64,000 nucleotides of DNA, taken from assembly GCF_017872975.1 (NCBI RefSeq), contig NZ_JAGGJP010000009.1:62001-126000 (forward strand). Direction: 5' to 3'. How positions within the stretch are numbered: position 1 is the stretch's first letter; each line of letters opens with the position of its first letter. Both the position numbers and the translations under genes were made by a program. The stretch is from Rubellimicrobium aerolatum. Its GTDB lineage: Bacteria > Pseudomonadota > Alphaproteobacteria > Rhodobacterales > Rhodobacteraceae. The notes beneath the pieces are model-generated. The model made no database searches, was not told the origin of the DNA, and was given only the letters and a program-made list of their open reading frames with translations. Of the stretch, positions 22,565 through 44,549 are shown piece after piece.

Positions 22565-23187
22565 CGCAGGGTCTGGATCCAGTCAAAGGTGGCGCCCTCG
22601 CCCAGGACGGAGCGCAGTTGGCCAGCCCGCACCGACTTCGGCACCAGGACCGCCTTGAGCACGGGCGCGGCAAGCTGCACCGCGGTCCCCGTCGTCGTCC
22701 CGGCCTTGAGGGGTGGCACGACCTCGCCCCAGCCGGTCAGGCCGGCGCTGTCGGCGACCATCGCCTCGGCGAGCTGGTGGAGGGCGTAGCGGGTGGGGGA
22801 TGAGCCATACGTGAAGCTGAGATAGGCCCCACGGGGTACGGAGACCCCGGCAGCGAGCCCCGACAGGCGCAGCTCGCGCCCGTTGCGGATGGTATTGAGC
22901 GTAGCGGCCCCGGCTCCCACGCGCTCGTGATGACGGGGCGAGACCAGGAAGGACGCCCCGGGACGCTGCAGCACCCGAAGTCGTGCCATGATGTCCTCCA
23001 GCACGGCGTGTCGCCGCGTGGCGAGCGTCACCGAACCGCGCCAGAGCCGGCTGCCGTGCTCGGCCGTGAGCACCTCGCCCGAGCCGAGGGTCAGCAGCTC
23101 CACGGCGTCGGGAAGCTCGAACGTCATGGAGTCGATCGCTACGTCGCGGAAGAAATCCGCAAGGCCCACAGGGAAGCTCATGGCCAT
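22561..23187 (-). CDS. minor tail protein (distal tail-like)
   Basis: A 208-aa protein directly after the tape measure gene, where lambda-like phages place M/L or distal tail proteins. The sequence is beta-rich, with SRLWRGSVTLATRRHAVLED in the N-terminal half and a long hydrophobic C-terminal part. No catalytic motif is seen. It overlaps both neighbours by a few bases. Confidence 0.6.
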   Translation of the reverse strand: MAMSFPVGLADFFRDVAIDSMTFELPDAVELLTLGSGEVLTAEHGSRLWRGSVTLATRRHAVLEDIMARLRVLQRPGASFLVSPRHHERVGAGAATLNTIRNGRELRLSGLAAGVSVPRGAYLSFTYGSSPTRYALHQLAEAMVADSAGLTGWGEVVPPLKAGTTTGTAVQLAAPVLKAVLVPKSVRAGQLRSVLGEGATFDWIQTLR

Positions 23188-25901
23188 CAGGTCTTCCTCG
23201 GATCACGGGTGATGGCCTTGACCTTGGCCGTGAGCTGTCCCTCGAGGGTGCGCACCCGGGCGTCCGCCGCCGCGACGCTGGTCCGGGCCACGTAGGCCTG
23301 CAGGCGGCCCTGATCGTCCACATCGACGGCCACGCGCACATCGACGGCCTGCCGGGACGCCTGGGCGGCACCATCGGCCGAGCCGCCCGCCCCCAGGCGG
23401 TAGCGCGGCGTCGCCCAGCCGGACGTTCCCTTGGTGTGGTCGATGATCGTCTCGTCGGGATGGATGATCGCGAGCCGGCCGCCCTTGCCGTCCAGCCCCC
23501 CCGAGCGCGAGCCCGAGCCGGTGTAGCCGCCTCCGTCGAAGCTGTCCAAAACCGCCTGGGGAATGGTGAGGCCGTAGGTAGAGCCAGTGACGCCCGCGCT
23601 CTCCCCGGTCCCGCTCCCCAGGAGCCCGCCCAGCAGGCCCCCCAGGAGCCCCGAGCCGCCGTCCGACCCGCCCGAGCCGAAGAGCCCGGTCGTGAGCCCG
23701 TCGAGCCCGGCGTCGAGGACCTTGCCTGCGATGTCGTCCAAGACACCCGCGAAGACCTCGCCGGCCGAGGCCCCCTCGCGCAGGTCGTCGATGATCCCGC
23801 CCAGCAGGTCGCGGCCCGCGTCGCGCACTGCGTCCATGCGGTCCTCGACCCGCTCGAGCGAGGCCTCCTCGGCGGCGTTGGAGCGGATCAGCGCCTCGAC
23901 CTCCGCGCGCTGCTCGGCCGTGGCCCCGGCCATCTCGTCCCGCGCCCGGATCAGCTCCCGCTGCACAGGGTCGGTCTCGCGCAGGAGGGCCTCCTCCTCG
24001 CGCAAGCGGTCGAGGAACTTCTGGACGCTCTCCGTCTCGCGTTCGGCCGCGCGCGCGCCGTCGCTCCGGCCCGAGCCACCGCCCGAGCCGCCGCCCGAGC
24101 CGCCCTTGCTCCGGGCCGGGACGACGCGCGGTGTGCGTACGGGCGCGTCGAGGTTGCCGAAGCCCAGTTCGGGCGCGGCGGTCTCGACGCCGGCCAGGCC
24201 GGGGACAGACGGCTTCCCATCCTCATCGTAGAGGGTCGGGCCAACGCCTTGGGCGTAGCCCAGGCCGCCACCGCCCGGGGCCCCCTCGGGCGCGCCGAGC
24301 CCGAAGCCAATATGGCTCTGGCCCGTGGACCGGCTCGCCTCGGCGGCGGCGAGCTGGTCGGCGAAGCTCACCGCGGCCGAGAGGTTGGCGAGCAGAGCGG
24401 CCGAGCCATCGATCGCGCCCCCGAAGGTGATCTCGCCCGAGGCGATGGCGAGGCGCGTGGCCGCGTCCTGACCATCATCAACGGCAGCGGTCAGATCGTC
24501 CTGTGTGACCACCGCTGCCGCCGCACGCTGCACAACGTCGCCCACAGCATTGGCGGTCCCGGCAAGTGCGTCGGGAAGGCTGAGGCTCTCGGACTTGAAC
24601 TGGCGGATCAGATCGAGCGCCGCCTGCGCGGCGTCCCGGACCTGCGCCGCATCCCCCGTCGATCGGGCGGTCTCGATGCCATCCAAGGCGGCCTGGAGGG
24701 CACTGGCCTGCTCCGCCGTGAGCCCGACCATGGCGGCCGCAGCCTCGGCCTCGGCCCGCACACGGGCCACCCCGGCCTCGGCTTGGGTGACGTTGACCGA
24801 CTGGCCCTCCCGCGCTCGCAGGGTGGCGAGCTTCGCCTCCTCCTCGCGGAGACGGCCAAGCGCTGCCATGGCCGCGTCCATGCCCTGTGTGAAATCGTCA
24901 GCGTCGAGCGAGTCGAGCGCCGCCGACAGGTTGATCCGGGCGAGCCACTGAGCGTTAGCGCGGATCTCTTCGGCGTAGGAGCCGAACTCGTCTCTCAGGT
25001 CTGCCGTGGACCGCTGAGCGGTCAGGGCGAACTGGTCGAAGCGGTCGAGCGCCTCGGAGAACTGATCCAGTCCGCGACCTGCATCTTCGGCGCTTTCTCC
25101 AGATTCCAGCCACATCGCCGCGAGCGGCACGCCCACGGCGATAACCGCACCAGCTGCCGCGCCCCAGAGACCCATCCCGCCCAGGAGCTGGGGCAGCTGC
25201 TGGCCAAAGGCGGTGGCCGCCGGCGTTCCGGCAGCCACCTGCACGGCAAAGTCCTGCACCTGGAAGGACGCGTTCTGCATCTGCCCGCGCATGTCGCGGG
25301 CTCCGATCCCCATGGTGTCCATCGCCGCGTCCGCGCCGCGCGCCGCGACGGCCGCGGCCTCGAACCGGGTCTTGGCCTGTGCCAGGACCCGGTTGGCTTC
25401 CTCCTGGGTGGTGATCCCCAGGCGCACCGCGCGGTTGACCGCCTCGACCTCCTGCTCGTAGCGGACCTGCGCCGCGTAGGCCGGATCGATCGAGGCCTTG
25501 AGCCGCACGAAGGCGGCCGACTCGGCCGCCAGCGCCGCCTGCGCGCGCAGCTCGGCCGAGGTCACCTCTTCCATCTGGGCCCGGGCACGCGCCAGGACGG
25601 CGTTCGCCTCCTCCCGGGTGGCGATCCCGATCCTCACGGCGCGGGCGGTGTCCTCCTCCACCTTCTGGAACCGCAACGTCGCGGCGTAGGCCGGATCGAC
25701 GCTGGCCCGCACCCGGTTGAACGCATCCTCCTCGCGCAGGAGCGTCCGCAGGAGGACCTCGCTGCCATCGGATCCCTGCGCGGCCCCAGCCGAGACCTTG
25801 GCGCCCGCTTCCGCTCCGGCCCGGCCGACGCCCTCGAGCTCGGCGCGGACCTGCGCCCCACCCTCGGCCGCCAGGCGGACCGTGACCTTGCGCTCAGCCA
25901 T
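23187..25901 (-). CDS. phage tail tape measure protein
   Basis: A 904-aa protein, the longest gene in the tail block apart from the tail tip. It has an N-terminal helical repeat region with three tandem units built around ASVDPAYAATLRFQKVE and ASIDPAYAAQVRYEQEVE, a central hydrophobic stretch (LWGAAAGAVIAVGVPLAAM), and a Gly/Ser-rich part near residues 620-640 and 750-790. This is the usual tape measure layout; it sets tail length and is ejected with the DNA. It overlaps the chaperone frame by 8 bp. Confidence 0.88.
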   Translation of the reverse strand: MAERKVTVRLAAEGGAQVRAELEGVGRAGAEAGAKVSAGAAQGSDGSEVLLRTLLREEDAFNRVRASVDPAYAATLRFQKVEEDTARAVRIGIATREEANAVLARARAQMEEVTSAELRAQAALAAESAAFVRLKASIDPAYAAQVRYEQEVEAVNRAVRLGITTQEEANRVLAQAKTRFEAAAVAARGADAAMDTMGIGARDMRGQMQNASFQVQDFAVQVAAGTPAATAFGQQLPQLLGGMGLWGAAAGAVIAVGVPLAAMWLESGESAEDAGRGLDQFSEALDRFDQFALTAQRSTADLRDEFGSYAEEIRANAQWLARINLSAALDSLDADDFTQGMDAAMAALGRLREEEAKLATLRAREGQSVNVTQAEAGVARVRAEAEAAAAMVGLTAEQASALQAALDGIETARSTGDAAQVRDAAQAALDLIRQFKSESLSLPDALAGTANAVGDVVQRAAAAVVTQDDLTAAVDDGQDAATRLAIASGEITFGGAIDGSAALLANLSAAVSFADQLAAAEASRSTGQSHIGFGLGAPEGAPGGGGLGYAQGVGPTLYDEDGKPSVPGLAGVETAAPELGFGNLDAPVRTPRVVPARSKGGSGGGSGGGSGRSDGARAAERETESVQKFLDRLREEEALLRETDPVQRELIRARDEMAGATAEQRAEVEALIRSNAAEEASLERVEDRMDAVRDAGRDLLGGIIDDLREGASAGEVFAGVLDDIAGKVLDAGLDGLTTGLFGSGGSDGGSGLLGGLLGGLLGSGTGESAGVTGSTYGLTIPQAVLDSFDGGGYTGSGSRSGGLDGKGGRLAIIHPDETIIDHTKGTSGWATPRYRLGAGGSADGAAQASRQAVDVRVAVDVDDQGRLQAYVARTSVAAADARVRTLEGQLTAKVKAITRDPRKT

Positions 25902-26564
25902 TCTGGGCCTCCAGGATTGCGGGGATCGCGCCCGCCTCGATCACGGGCAGGAACTCGGCCACAGCCGTGCGCGAGATGCCGAGCGCCTCCCCCATCTCGA
26001 GGGCCGCGCCGAAGTCGAAGCCCCCGGTCCCCCCGAAGGGCCCGCGCGCGTAGAGCTGCCGGCCCAGGCGCGTGGCGAGGCTCCAGACCTGCTGGCCTTC
26101 GGCGGTCAGGGGCGCGTTCACGCGGGCAGGGCAGCCGTCGCAGACGCCGTCGCAGCTGCCGCAGTAGTCTCCGCCCCCGCCGAAGTGCCAGCGGGCGAGG
26201 GCGTGGAGACGTTTCCCTCGGCGACCAGGGCGGCACCGGCGCGGACGTAGTCCCGCGCGAAGGCCACATAGAGGTCGGTGTGCTGCTCGAGGAGCGCGTC
26301 GATGGCCGGGCCGCTGACCGGCAGGTCCGCCCCGGTCTCGTCGGCCACGCCCTCCCAGGCCCGGATCGCGCGGCGCGCCACCGCCTTGGCGTGGGCGATG
26401 TTCCGGCCGATCAGCGTGGGCAGGTCGAGCTGGTCGGGCTCGATCACGGGCAGCTCGGCCCGGGCGGCCAGGTCGATGAAGCTGCCGAGCGGCTCCACTT
26501 CCACCCGGACCCCTCGGCCGAGGTCGATCCAGCGGGGTGCGGCGGACAGGTTGAGGCGGATCAT
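25894..26564 (-). CDS. tail assembly chaperone, long -1 frameshift product (GT-like)
   Basis: The ribosome starts at 26564, slips back one base at the GGGAAAC site (26211-26217) and reads to a stop at 25894, giving 223 codons. The frame arithmetic is exact (671 nt plus the repeated base is 224 triplets). After the shift the product reads RLHALARWHFGGGG, then a Cys-rich CGSCDGVCDGC and a folded C-terminal domain ending AIPAILEAQN. In lambda the homologous G/GT pair holds the tape measure before tail tube assembly. The gene position, just before the tape measure gene, is the same. Confidence 0.82.
26118..26564 (-). CDS. tail assembly chaperone, short product (G-like)
   Basis: The zero-frame product is 148 aa: an acidic/hydrophobic helical body (LGSFIDLAARAELPVIEPDQ) and, after the slip site, an Ala/Thr-rich tail (AGAETTAAAATASATAALPA) that looks like filler. 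It would be made in excess over the long form. The start ATG overlaps the tail tube stop (ATGA). Confidence 0.82.
   Translation of the reverse strand: MIRLNLSAAPRWIDLGRGVRVEVEPLGSFIDLAARAELPVIEPDQLDLPTLIGRNIAHAKAVARRAIRAWEGVADETGADLPVSGPAIDALLEQHTDLYVAFARDYVRAGAALVAEGNVSTPSPAGTSAGAETTAAAATASATAALPA
26167..26217 (-). promoter_or_regulatory. programmed -1 ribosomal frameshift element
   Basis: The zero-frame codons GAG GGA AAC contain the canonical heptamer G-GGA-AAC (26211-26217). After an 8-nt spacer comes a 9-bp stem (26194-26202 with 26173-26181; GCCCTCGCC / GGCGGGGGC with one U-G pair) and a 12-nt loop. A further 6-bp helix GTCTCC / GGAGAC (26205-26210 with 26167-26172) stacks below it. 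Heptamer, spacer and stem all match the known rules for -1 frameshifting. Confidence 0.85.
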
Positions 26565-27502
26565 CAGTAGCTCGCGATGGTGTTGGTGAGGACGGCGGTG
26601 CACATGCGGGCGGGGGTCGTGGCCTTCGCCGCCTGCCAGTCGAAGGTGACCTCGACGCCTTGCGGTCCCTGGATCGGGCGGCGCGGGCGGGGCAGGTAGA
26701 CCGCATGCGCGGTCAGCGACCATTTGGCGTCAGCCGCGAGCTCATGCCCGAAGACCAGCTCGCAGGCCGAACCCGCCACGGCCTGGTCGAGGAGCGTCGT
26801 GTCGGCAAAGCGGGCGGTGATCTGGCCCGTCAGCTCGGCGTTGCCCGCCTCGATGCCGTCGATCTTGCCGTCCGCCCGGATGGTGCCGACCGGGTCGAGG
26901 TTGTTGCGATAGGTCACCTGCGCCGAGACGATGTTGCCGAGCGAGGCCCCGTTGCGCTTGATGGAACCGTGGAAGTGGCCGAAGCGCCGGAGCGCGAGCG
27001 CGGTGGTGGAGCCTGCGGCCGAGGCGGCGGCCATGGCCTCGCCCTGCCCGATCAGCTTGGCGGTCGCCGTGAGGAGCCCGCTCCGCGCCATGTTGAAGCT
27101 CAGCTCATCGAGCATGACGCCCGAGTACATGGCGAAGCTCGGCACGCTCGGCATCCCCACTTCCATGGCGAGGCTGGGCAGCACGGCCCCGCCGCTCTGG
27201 AAGGTGTGCACCTTGGGCGTGGTGCCGGTGGTGGTGGGGGCACCGAAGGCGGCCTTGAGCCAGACGCCCAGATTTTCCACGTCCATCGGCAGGACGAGGT
27301 CGCCGTCCACCGTGACGGCGTCCAGCACGGGGGCGAGCGGGTCGCGCCCCTGCCCCACCAGCTCGCTCGCGAGGAGCGGCTGCGCAGCCCCGAGCGTGGT
27401 GCTCGCGAACGGCATCAGCCGGTAGCCGCTGGCGGGCGCGGTCCCGTAGGTGGTCTCGAAGGCAACGGCCAACTGGGCCGTCGCGCCGGTCTGGCGGGCC
27501 AT
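26564..27502 (-). CDS. major tail tube protein
   Basis: A 312-aa beta-rich protein starting MARQTGATAQLAVAFETTYG, typical of phage tail tube subunits of this lineage, with later LSFNMARSGLLTATAKLIG. It polymerises into the tail tube around the tape measure. Gene order supports it: head-tail proteins upstream, chaperones and tape measure downstream. The stop overlaps the chaperone ATG. Confidence 0.85.
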   Translation of the reverse strand: MARQTGATAQLAVAFETTYGTAPASGYRLMPFASTTLGAAQPLLASELVGQGRDPLAPVLDAVTVDGDLVLPMDVENLGVWLKAAFGAPTTTGTTPKVHTFQSGGAVLPSLAMEVGMPSVPSFAMYSGVMLDELSFNMARSGLLTATAKLIGQGEAMAAASAAGSTTALALRRFGHFHGSIKRNGASLGNIVSAQVTYRNNLDPVGTIRADGKIDGIEAGNAELTGQITARFADTTLLDQAVAGSACELVFGHELAADAKWSLTAHAVYLPRPRRPIQGPQGVEVTFDWQAAKATTPARMCTAVLTNTIASY

Positions 27503-44337: not shown

Positions 44338-44549
44338 GATCAATGCTCCGGGCAAAGGAGGGGGACGGATGGCAGTCCGTCCCCCAGGGACGCGCGCCAG
44401 GCAGGGGCGAGGGCGCGCGGAACACGGGGACCCGTCCGCGGTCGGACGCGCGGACGGGCCAGCCCCTGCGCGGGAGGGAGACGCAGGGACATGGGGGCCC
44501 GGACTGTTTCCGCCCGCGCATCCAGTCCGCTCCGTTTCCCTAAAATTGT

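Follow-up and report, generated by a model that had tools for sequence, protein, structure and literature searches.

In the tail chaperone gene of phage lambda, a -1 ribosomal slip at the heptamer GGGAAAG gives a minor, extended chaperone, gpGT, beside gpG, and a stimulatory RNA stem usually stands 5-9 nt behind a slippery heptamer. The T part of the lambda protein is not known to have a Cys cluster. In the description of PMC5009743, the tape measure protein is the partner of gpG, and the major tail protein is bound by the T part of gpGT. Slippery sites reported for the tail chaperone genes of other phages include AAAAAAC in Caulobacter phage phiCbK and GGGAAAC in Caulobacter phage Colossus and Burkholderia phage KL1 (PMC3556154, PMC3483164), and both G_GGA_AAC and A_AAA_AAC have been listed for haloarchaeal viruses. 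The described systems closest to the one analyzed here belong to two isolated phages of Rhodobacter capsulatus, RcOceanus (genes 14/15) and RcFrancesLouise (genes 16/17), whose records annotate two tail chaperones, the longer being given as a coding sequence joined from two pieces.

The window analyzed here is a 64,000-nt stretch of the genome assembly of the bacterium Rubellimicrobium aerolatum, in which a tail chaperone gene of the same organization is found within a phage region, on the minus strand. It shares with RcOceanus and RcFrancesLouise the gene order, the heptamer GGGAAAC at the same codon, the position of the stem and the Cys cluster, the T parts being 45% identical. It differs from them in that the T part comprises 105 residues, compared to 118 in the Rhodobacter capsulatus phages, and in the pairing around the stem, as RcFrancesLouise has a 10-bp inner stem with another outer pairing. 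With lambda gpG/gpGT the window shares a -1 slip giving a minor extended chaperone, which for the window is deduced from sequence alone; the heptamer ends in AAC in the window and in AAG in lambda. The likeness of phiCbK, Colossus and KL1 to the family of the window is at the level of the slippery site in tail chaperone genes. We consider it very probable that a programmed -1 ribosomal frameshift of the lambda type produces both the short protein G and the fusion G-T from this locus. The mechanism itself is already known in phages, and the window adds a further instance. The features of the locus are as follows.

26564-27502, minus strand: gene immediately before G, probably for the tail tube (major tail) protein (phrog_290, E 2.6e-65)
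26118-26564, minus strand: gene G, 0-frame ORF of 148 aa, ATG at 26564-26562, stop at 26120-26118 (phrog_313)
26211-26217, minus strand: slippery heptamer G_GGA_AAC in the X_XXY_YYZ register
25894-26211, minus strand: T part in the -1 frame, 105 aa after the slip, stop at 25896-25894
26173-26202, minus strand: conserved, putatively stimulatory stem-loop, 9 bp with a 12-nt loop, 8 nt after the heptamer
26167-26210, minus strand: outer 6-bp helix, GUCUCC (26210-26205) with GGAGAC (26172-26167)
26131-26163, minus strand: Cys cluster C-x2-C-x3-C-x2-C of the T part, a possible zinc knuckle
25909-26040, minus strand: match of T residues 58-101 to DUF7697 (E 4e-15) and phrog_11212 (E 1.2e-10)
23187-25901, minus strand: tape measure protein gene, directly downstream (phrog_8892, E 2.2e-19)

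Gene G thus sits between the tail tube and tape measure genes. Its ATG overlaps the stop codon of the upstream tail gene, and a profile search matched it to phrog_313, 'Tail assembly chaperone' (E 3.9e-08); no Pfam match to G was found up to E 1. The upstream family phrog_290 carries the name 'minor tail protein', and the gene in the same position is called 'tail tube protein' in two Rhodobacter phages. In a Synechococcus phage record (OP858991.1), the gene at the tail tube position (L198:211-1149) is annotated as a site-specific tyrosine recombinase, which is probably a misannotation. The -1 frame of the T part is open up to a stop near the tape measure start, so that its end overlaps the tape measure ATG at 25901, and T has no near start codon of its own.

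The 0-frame codons around the heptamer are GAG GGA AAC GTC, which is the register needed for a -1 slip; the heptamer proposed by the sequence-only reading was therefore confirmed at 26217-26211. The in-frame fusion to a Cys-rich C-terminal part, proposed by the same reading, was found as well: 105 open codons follow the slip in the -1 frame, and the calculated length of the fusion is 118 + 105 = 223 aa. GGGAAAC occurs twice on the minus strand of the window and is absent from the plus strand; the second copy lies at window position 44540. In eight other phage genes (4400 codons), eight in-register XXXYYYZ heptamers were counted, and in one of them, GGGTTTC in the terminase gene, YYY was AAA or TTT.

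Relatives of the locus were collected from several sources. Among phage records, DNA relatives comprised ten Rhodobacter phages and two with cyanobacteria as the recorded source. Whole-protein or profile searches revealed the T part in 34 of 195 related genomes, 32 of 196 genomes of the order and 15 of 385 genomes of the class, these three counts including the genome of the window itself and partly overlapping. From the related genomes, 53 of 54 places with T were taken in, and from the class set all 16; the 52 places of the order set comprised 12 already in the sample, 28 newly examined and 12 left out. The T part was also found in 84 IMG/VR loci, of which 80 were kept, and in 13 genome contigs. 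These 80 viral and 13 genome loci were found by peptide patterns that overlap the stem region, which biases this part of the sample toward similar sequences. We left out the window's own locus (L001 and L007), two chance DNA matches (L002 and L003), a locus whose match starts at residue 53 (L059), and five loci whose match starts at residue 24 or later (L176 and L178-L181). The slip region was readable in 188 loci, of which 149 are distinct over 134 nt. One IMG/VR contig (L060), with a T part 100% identical to that of the window, is probably the same region. The identical T parts of a Nostoc phage (L004, PP438413.1) and the Synechococcus phage mentioned above are related to the alphaproteobacterial ones, and both may come from bacteria accompanying the cyanobacterial cultures.

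A canonical heptamer stands at the same codon in 148 of the 149 distinct loci: A_AAA_AAC in 127, G_GGA_AAC in 15, A_AAA_AAA in five and A_AAA_AAT in one. The remaining locus, a distant homolog with a strong stem (L058:987-993), has the non-canonical GGGGGAA at the slip position and may slip on one tRNA only. The G profile, built from 12 loci, matches the upstream 0-frame in 146 of the 149 loci, 145 of which have the canonical heptamer; the three loci without a match include one (L141) that is cut by a contig end. The last base of the heptamer is C in 142 loci, A in six, T in one and G in none. T begins with Arg in 147 of the 149 loci, so this base may reflect the Arg codon in addition to slipperiness.

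The abundance of A-type sites raises the question of transcriptional slippage, in which RNA polymerase would slip on a homopolymer run and mixed mRNAs would reach T without any ribosomal slip. Among the 133 distinct A-type loci, the run is of seven A in 122, of eight in seven and of six in four, and two of the eight-A loci have fused frames. However, the slip site of 15 distinct loci, the window among them, is GGGAAAC, in which no base is repeated more than three times in a row, and polymerase slippage would not be expected to need the RNA stem that is conserved downstream. This explanation is therefore very improbable.

In the two loci with fused frames (L063 and L133), G is read in the same frame as T: with eight A in the run (GAAAAAAAAC, around 1494-1500), one additional A joins the two parts, and no shift is needed there. 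Either the frameshift was lost naturally in these loci or the extra A is an error in the homopolymer. These loci also bear on another explanation, that T is translated on its own or that the split is an ordinary gene decayed by a frameshift mutation. Several further loci can be read in this way. In the distant L176 (minus strand, about 1690-2242), the stop TGA of G is directly followed by ATG in T's frame; the locus lacks a canonical heptamer, and a frame change breaks up its T at a later point. In L166, an ATG is found at T codon 3. L178 and L181, in which no G was found, have a truncated tail tube gene and behind it, in a different frame, the C-terminal part of T; both are probably decayed regions. 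L179 and L180 are cut by contig ends. Nevertheless, codons 0-29 of T contain no ATG, GTG or TTG in 148 of the 149 loci, the exception being L166, and in 11 of the 149 the -1 frame does not stay open for more than six codons upstream. Moreover, the split layout of G and T recurs in isolated phages and in genomes of other families of the class, as well as in named genomes from Cereibacter to Sphingomonas. Homologs with fused frames or a separate start, which would speak against frameshifting, thus do exist, but the fused ones amount to two of 149 and the separate start is seen in L176, outside the 149. An independent or decayed T has, in our estimation, hardly any chance of being the right account, and a ribosomal shift into T remains the preferred one.

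Behind the heptamer of the window, the arms of the inner stem, GCCCUCGCC at 26202-26194 and GGCGGGGGC at 26181-26173, form 9 bp; the stem can be extended by the pair C26203-G26172, which competes with the outer helix. The 51-nt fold of 26160-26210 has -27.9 kcal/mol and z -3.34, with one of 200 shuffles as good, but the folds of longer stretches do not stand out (98 nt, z -1.47, 15 of 200 shuffles; 78 nt, z -1.12, 26 of 200). The inner stem is equaled by 239 of 2000 synonymous recodings (z -1.28), by 42 of 200 recodings with local codon usage (z -0.81), and in stability by 7.4% of 6986 stretches of 42 nt; the inner stem together with the outer helix is matched by five of 2000 synonymous recodings. 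Given these frequencies, the inner stem of the window taken alone was rejected as proof. Since it is no better than chance by these measures, the case has to be decided by the relatives rather than by the window.

The stem may, indeed, be a by-product of coding Ala-Leu-Ala and Gly-Gly-Gly in GC-rich DNA, with the heptamer acting alone. This is in line with the recoding result for the window and with the fact that the stem arms encode conserved residues. In the relatives, however, the synonymous codons depart from this expectation. At least seven of the nine bases of the 5' arm pair downstream in 144 of the 149 loci, and in 113 loci aligned without gaps (L058 and L120 excluded) nine pairs form in 82, eight in 29 and seven in two; the neighboring C-G pair forms in 110 of the 113. 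Codon choice in the stem is skewed towards pairing: CTG is used in none of 109 Leu codons (54% in the background) and GCG in none of 112 codons for the first Ala (45% in the background), being found at the second Ala in four, whereas the middle Gly is GGG in 98 of 113 loci, compared to 17% of Gly codons in the background. Thus, CTG and GCG are avoided and GGG is preferred where pairing needs it. A binomial tail probability for these counts was set aside, as it takes no account of the relatedness of the loci. Compared to synonymous recodings in 115 loci, the stems have a mean z of -2.82, with 114 values below zero and 95 below -2; the window has z -0.81 in this run, and L040 is above zero. In eight loci with a 0-frame stop a single codon behind the heptamer, all nine bases of the 5' arm are still paired, so 0-frame coding does not explain the stem there. 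A stem of different sequence is kept in five distant loci (L058, L166, L167, L169 and L175). The MFE favors another fold in five of 149 loci (L048, L130, L135, L182 and L183).

In a set of 32 chosen sequences, 94.1% of the cells in the stem alignment were paired, versus 47-61% when slid. Formal covariation in these sequences was modest, which may be counted in favor of a coding by-product: of 500 shuffles, 16 reached the score, 50 the number of paired cells and 86 the number of double-change pairs. The weakness follows from the arrangement of the codons, as each third codon position pairs with a mostly fixed first or second position; for this reason synonymous codon choice was used as the test instead. 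Taken with the codon results, this leaves the by-product explanation improbable. A stem-loop near the heptamer has thus been kept beyond coding need, its stimulatory effect being putative. The 9-bp stem located 8 nt behind the heptamer by the sequence-only reading holds in the fold of the window and in the homologs, and the comparison of relatives which that reading had proposed as a check revealed conservation of both elements, in support of its assignment to the known -1 frameshifts of siphophage tail chaperones.

The same reading had described a two-part stem of 15 bp. Both helices are indeed present in the window, but the outer one is not a feature of the family: at the pairing positions of the window type, which this count covers, all six outer pairs form in one of the 113 aligned loci, namely the window, five form in 10 and four in 23. 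The outer helix was accordingly rejected as a conserved element. Furthermore, its 5' arm adjoins the heptamer without a gap, so a ribosome occupying the slip site should hold this helix open.

Based on these data, the following scheme may be proposed for cells in which the region is expressed. The 148-aa protein would come from the majority of ribosomes, which would read G to its own stop. In the remaining minority, the stem 8 nt further on would cause a pause while tRNA-Gly and tRNA-Asn occupy GGA and AAC; both tRNAs would then re-pair one base back, on GGG and AAA, and translation would go on in the -1 frame. The product would be the fusion G-T (223 aa), with a T part predicted to be helical and to carry four clustered Cys. 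If the roles are those known from lambda, the tape measure protein would be coated by the G part, and tail tube protein would be recruited by the less abundant G-T; with such roles, the ratio of G to G-T would matter for tail assembly. The deep comparative set supports the view that a slip site and an RNA stem set this chaperone ratio in phages and prophage-like regions.

The Cys cluster in the shifted part had been regarded as an unusual addition, which was not borne out, as at least four Cys are found within T residues 13-60 in all 149 distinct loci; the exact spacing C-x2-C-x3-C-x2-C is present in 92 of 115 loci. The model of the 105-residue T part, which is predicted with confidence (pLDDT 89.2, pTM 0.82), consists of helices with two short strands. 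T may thus be a four-Cys helical domain, possibly one that binds zinc. In a Foldseek search of a viral library, the top match of the model was an uncharacterized protein (probability 1.00, E 0.062), and weak likeness was seen to the predicted folds of tape measure chaperones from Enterobacter phage F20 (probability 0.99, E 0.066) and Proteus phage Stubb (probability 0.82, E 0.51), the latter two matches not being significant on their own at these E-values. A search of solved structures with the T profile gave no matches at E up to 1, and Foldseek of the model against PDB gave none at E <= 0.001. Within the literature searched, DUF7697 was in no paper, and no title pointed to a tail chaperone with a Cys or zinc domain.

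The two families that match T, DUF7697 and phrog_11212, are both labeled 'unknown function'. DUF7697 scores 55.9 bits on T of the window (cut-off 27) and matches 49 of the 49 T members scanned, and phrog_11212 matches 47 of 49; 16 of the 49 also match a third family, phrog_680, which bears the name tape measure protein (best E 1.7e-05). The profiles of DUF7697 and phrog_11212, with 52 and 55 positions, are confined in their matches to the C-terminal half of T, which in the window means residue 58 onwards. In eight of the loci whose -1 frame does not extend far upstream, T has its first start codon in the range of codons 30-59. The record of Nostoc phage Nsp-JY21 indeed gives T a CDS of its own, which starts 40 codons into T. 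With start codons so late, gene callers probably miss the Cys half, which may explain why both families model the C-terminal half only. Genes matching DUF7697 or phrog_11212 can therefore be extended through the slip site, and for these families, to which no function has so far been assigned, a role as the frameshift-made half of a tail chaperone is suggested.

More tentatively, and with the odds somewhat against it, the loci could represent a distinct tail chaperone family, here from alphaproteobacteria, with a zinc-stabilized four-Cys T part (DUF7697) and a slip site that nearly always ends in AAC and never in AAG, the latter having been reported as more shift-prone in E. coli. If true, this would suggest a slip site tuned to the host and a metal-dependent step in chaperone function.
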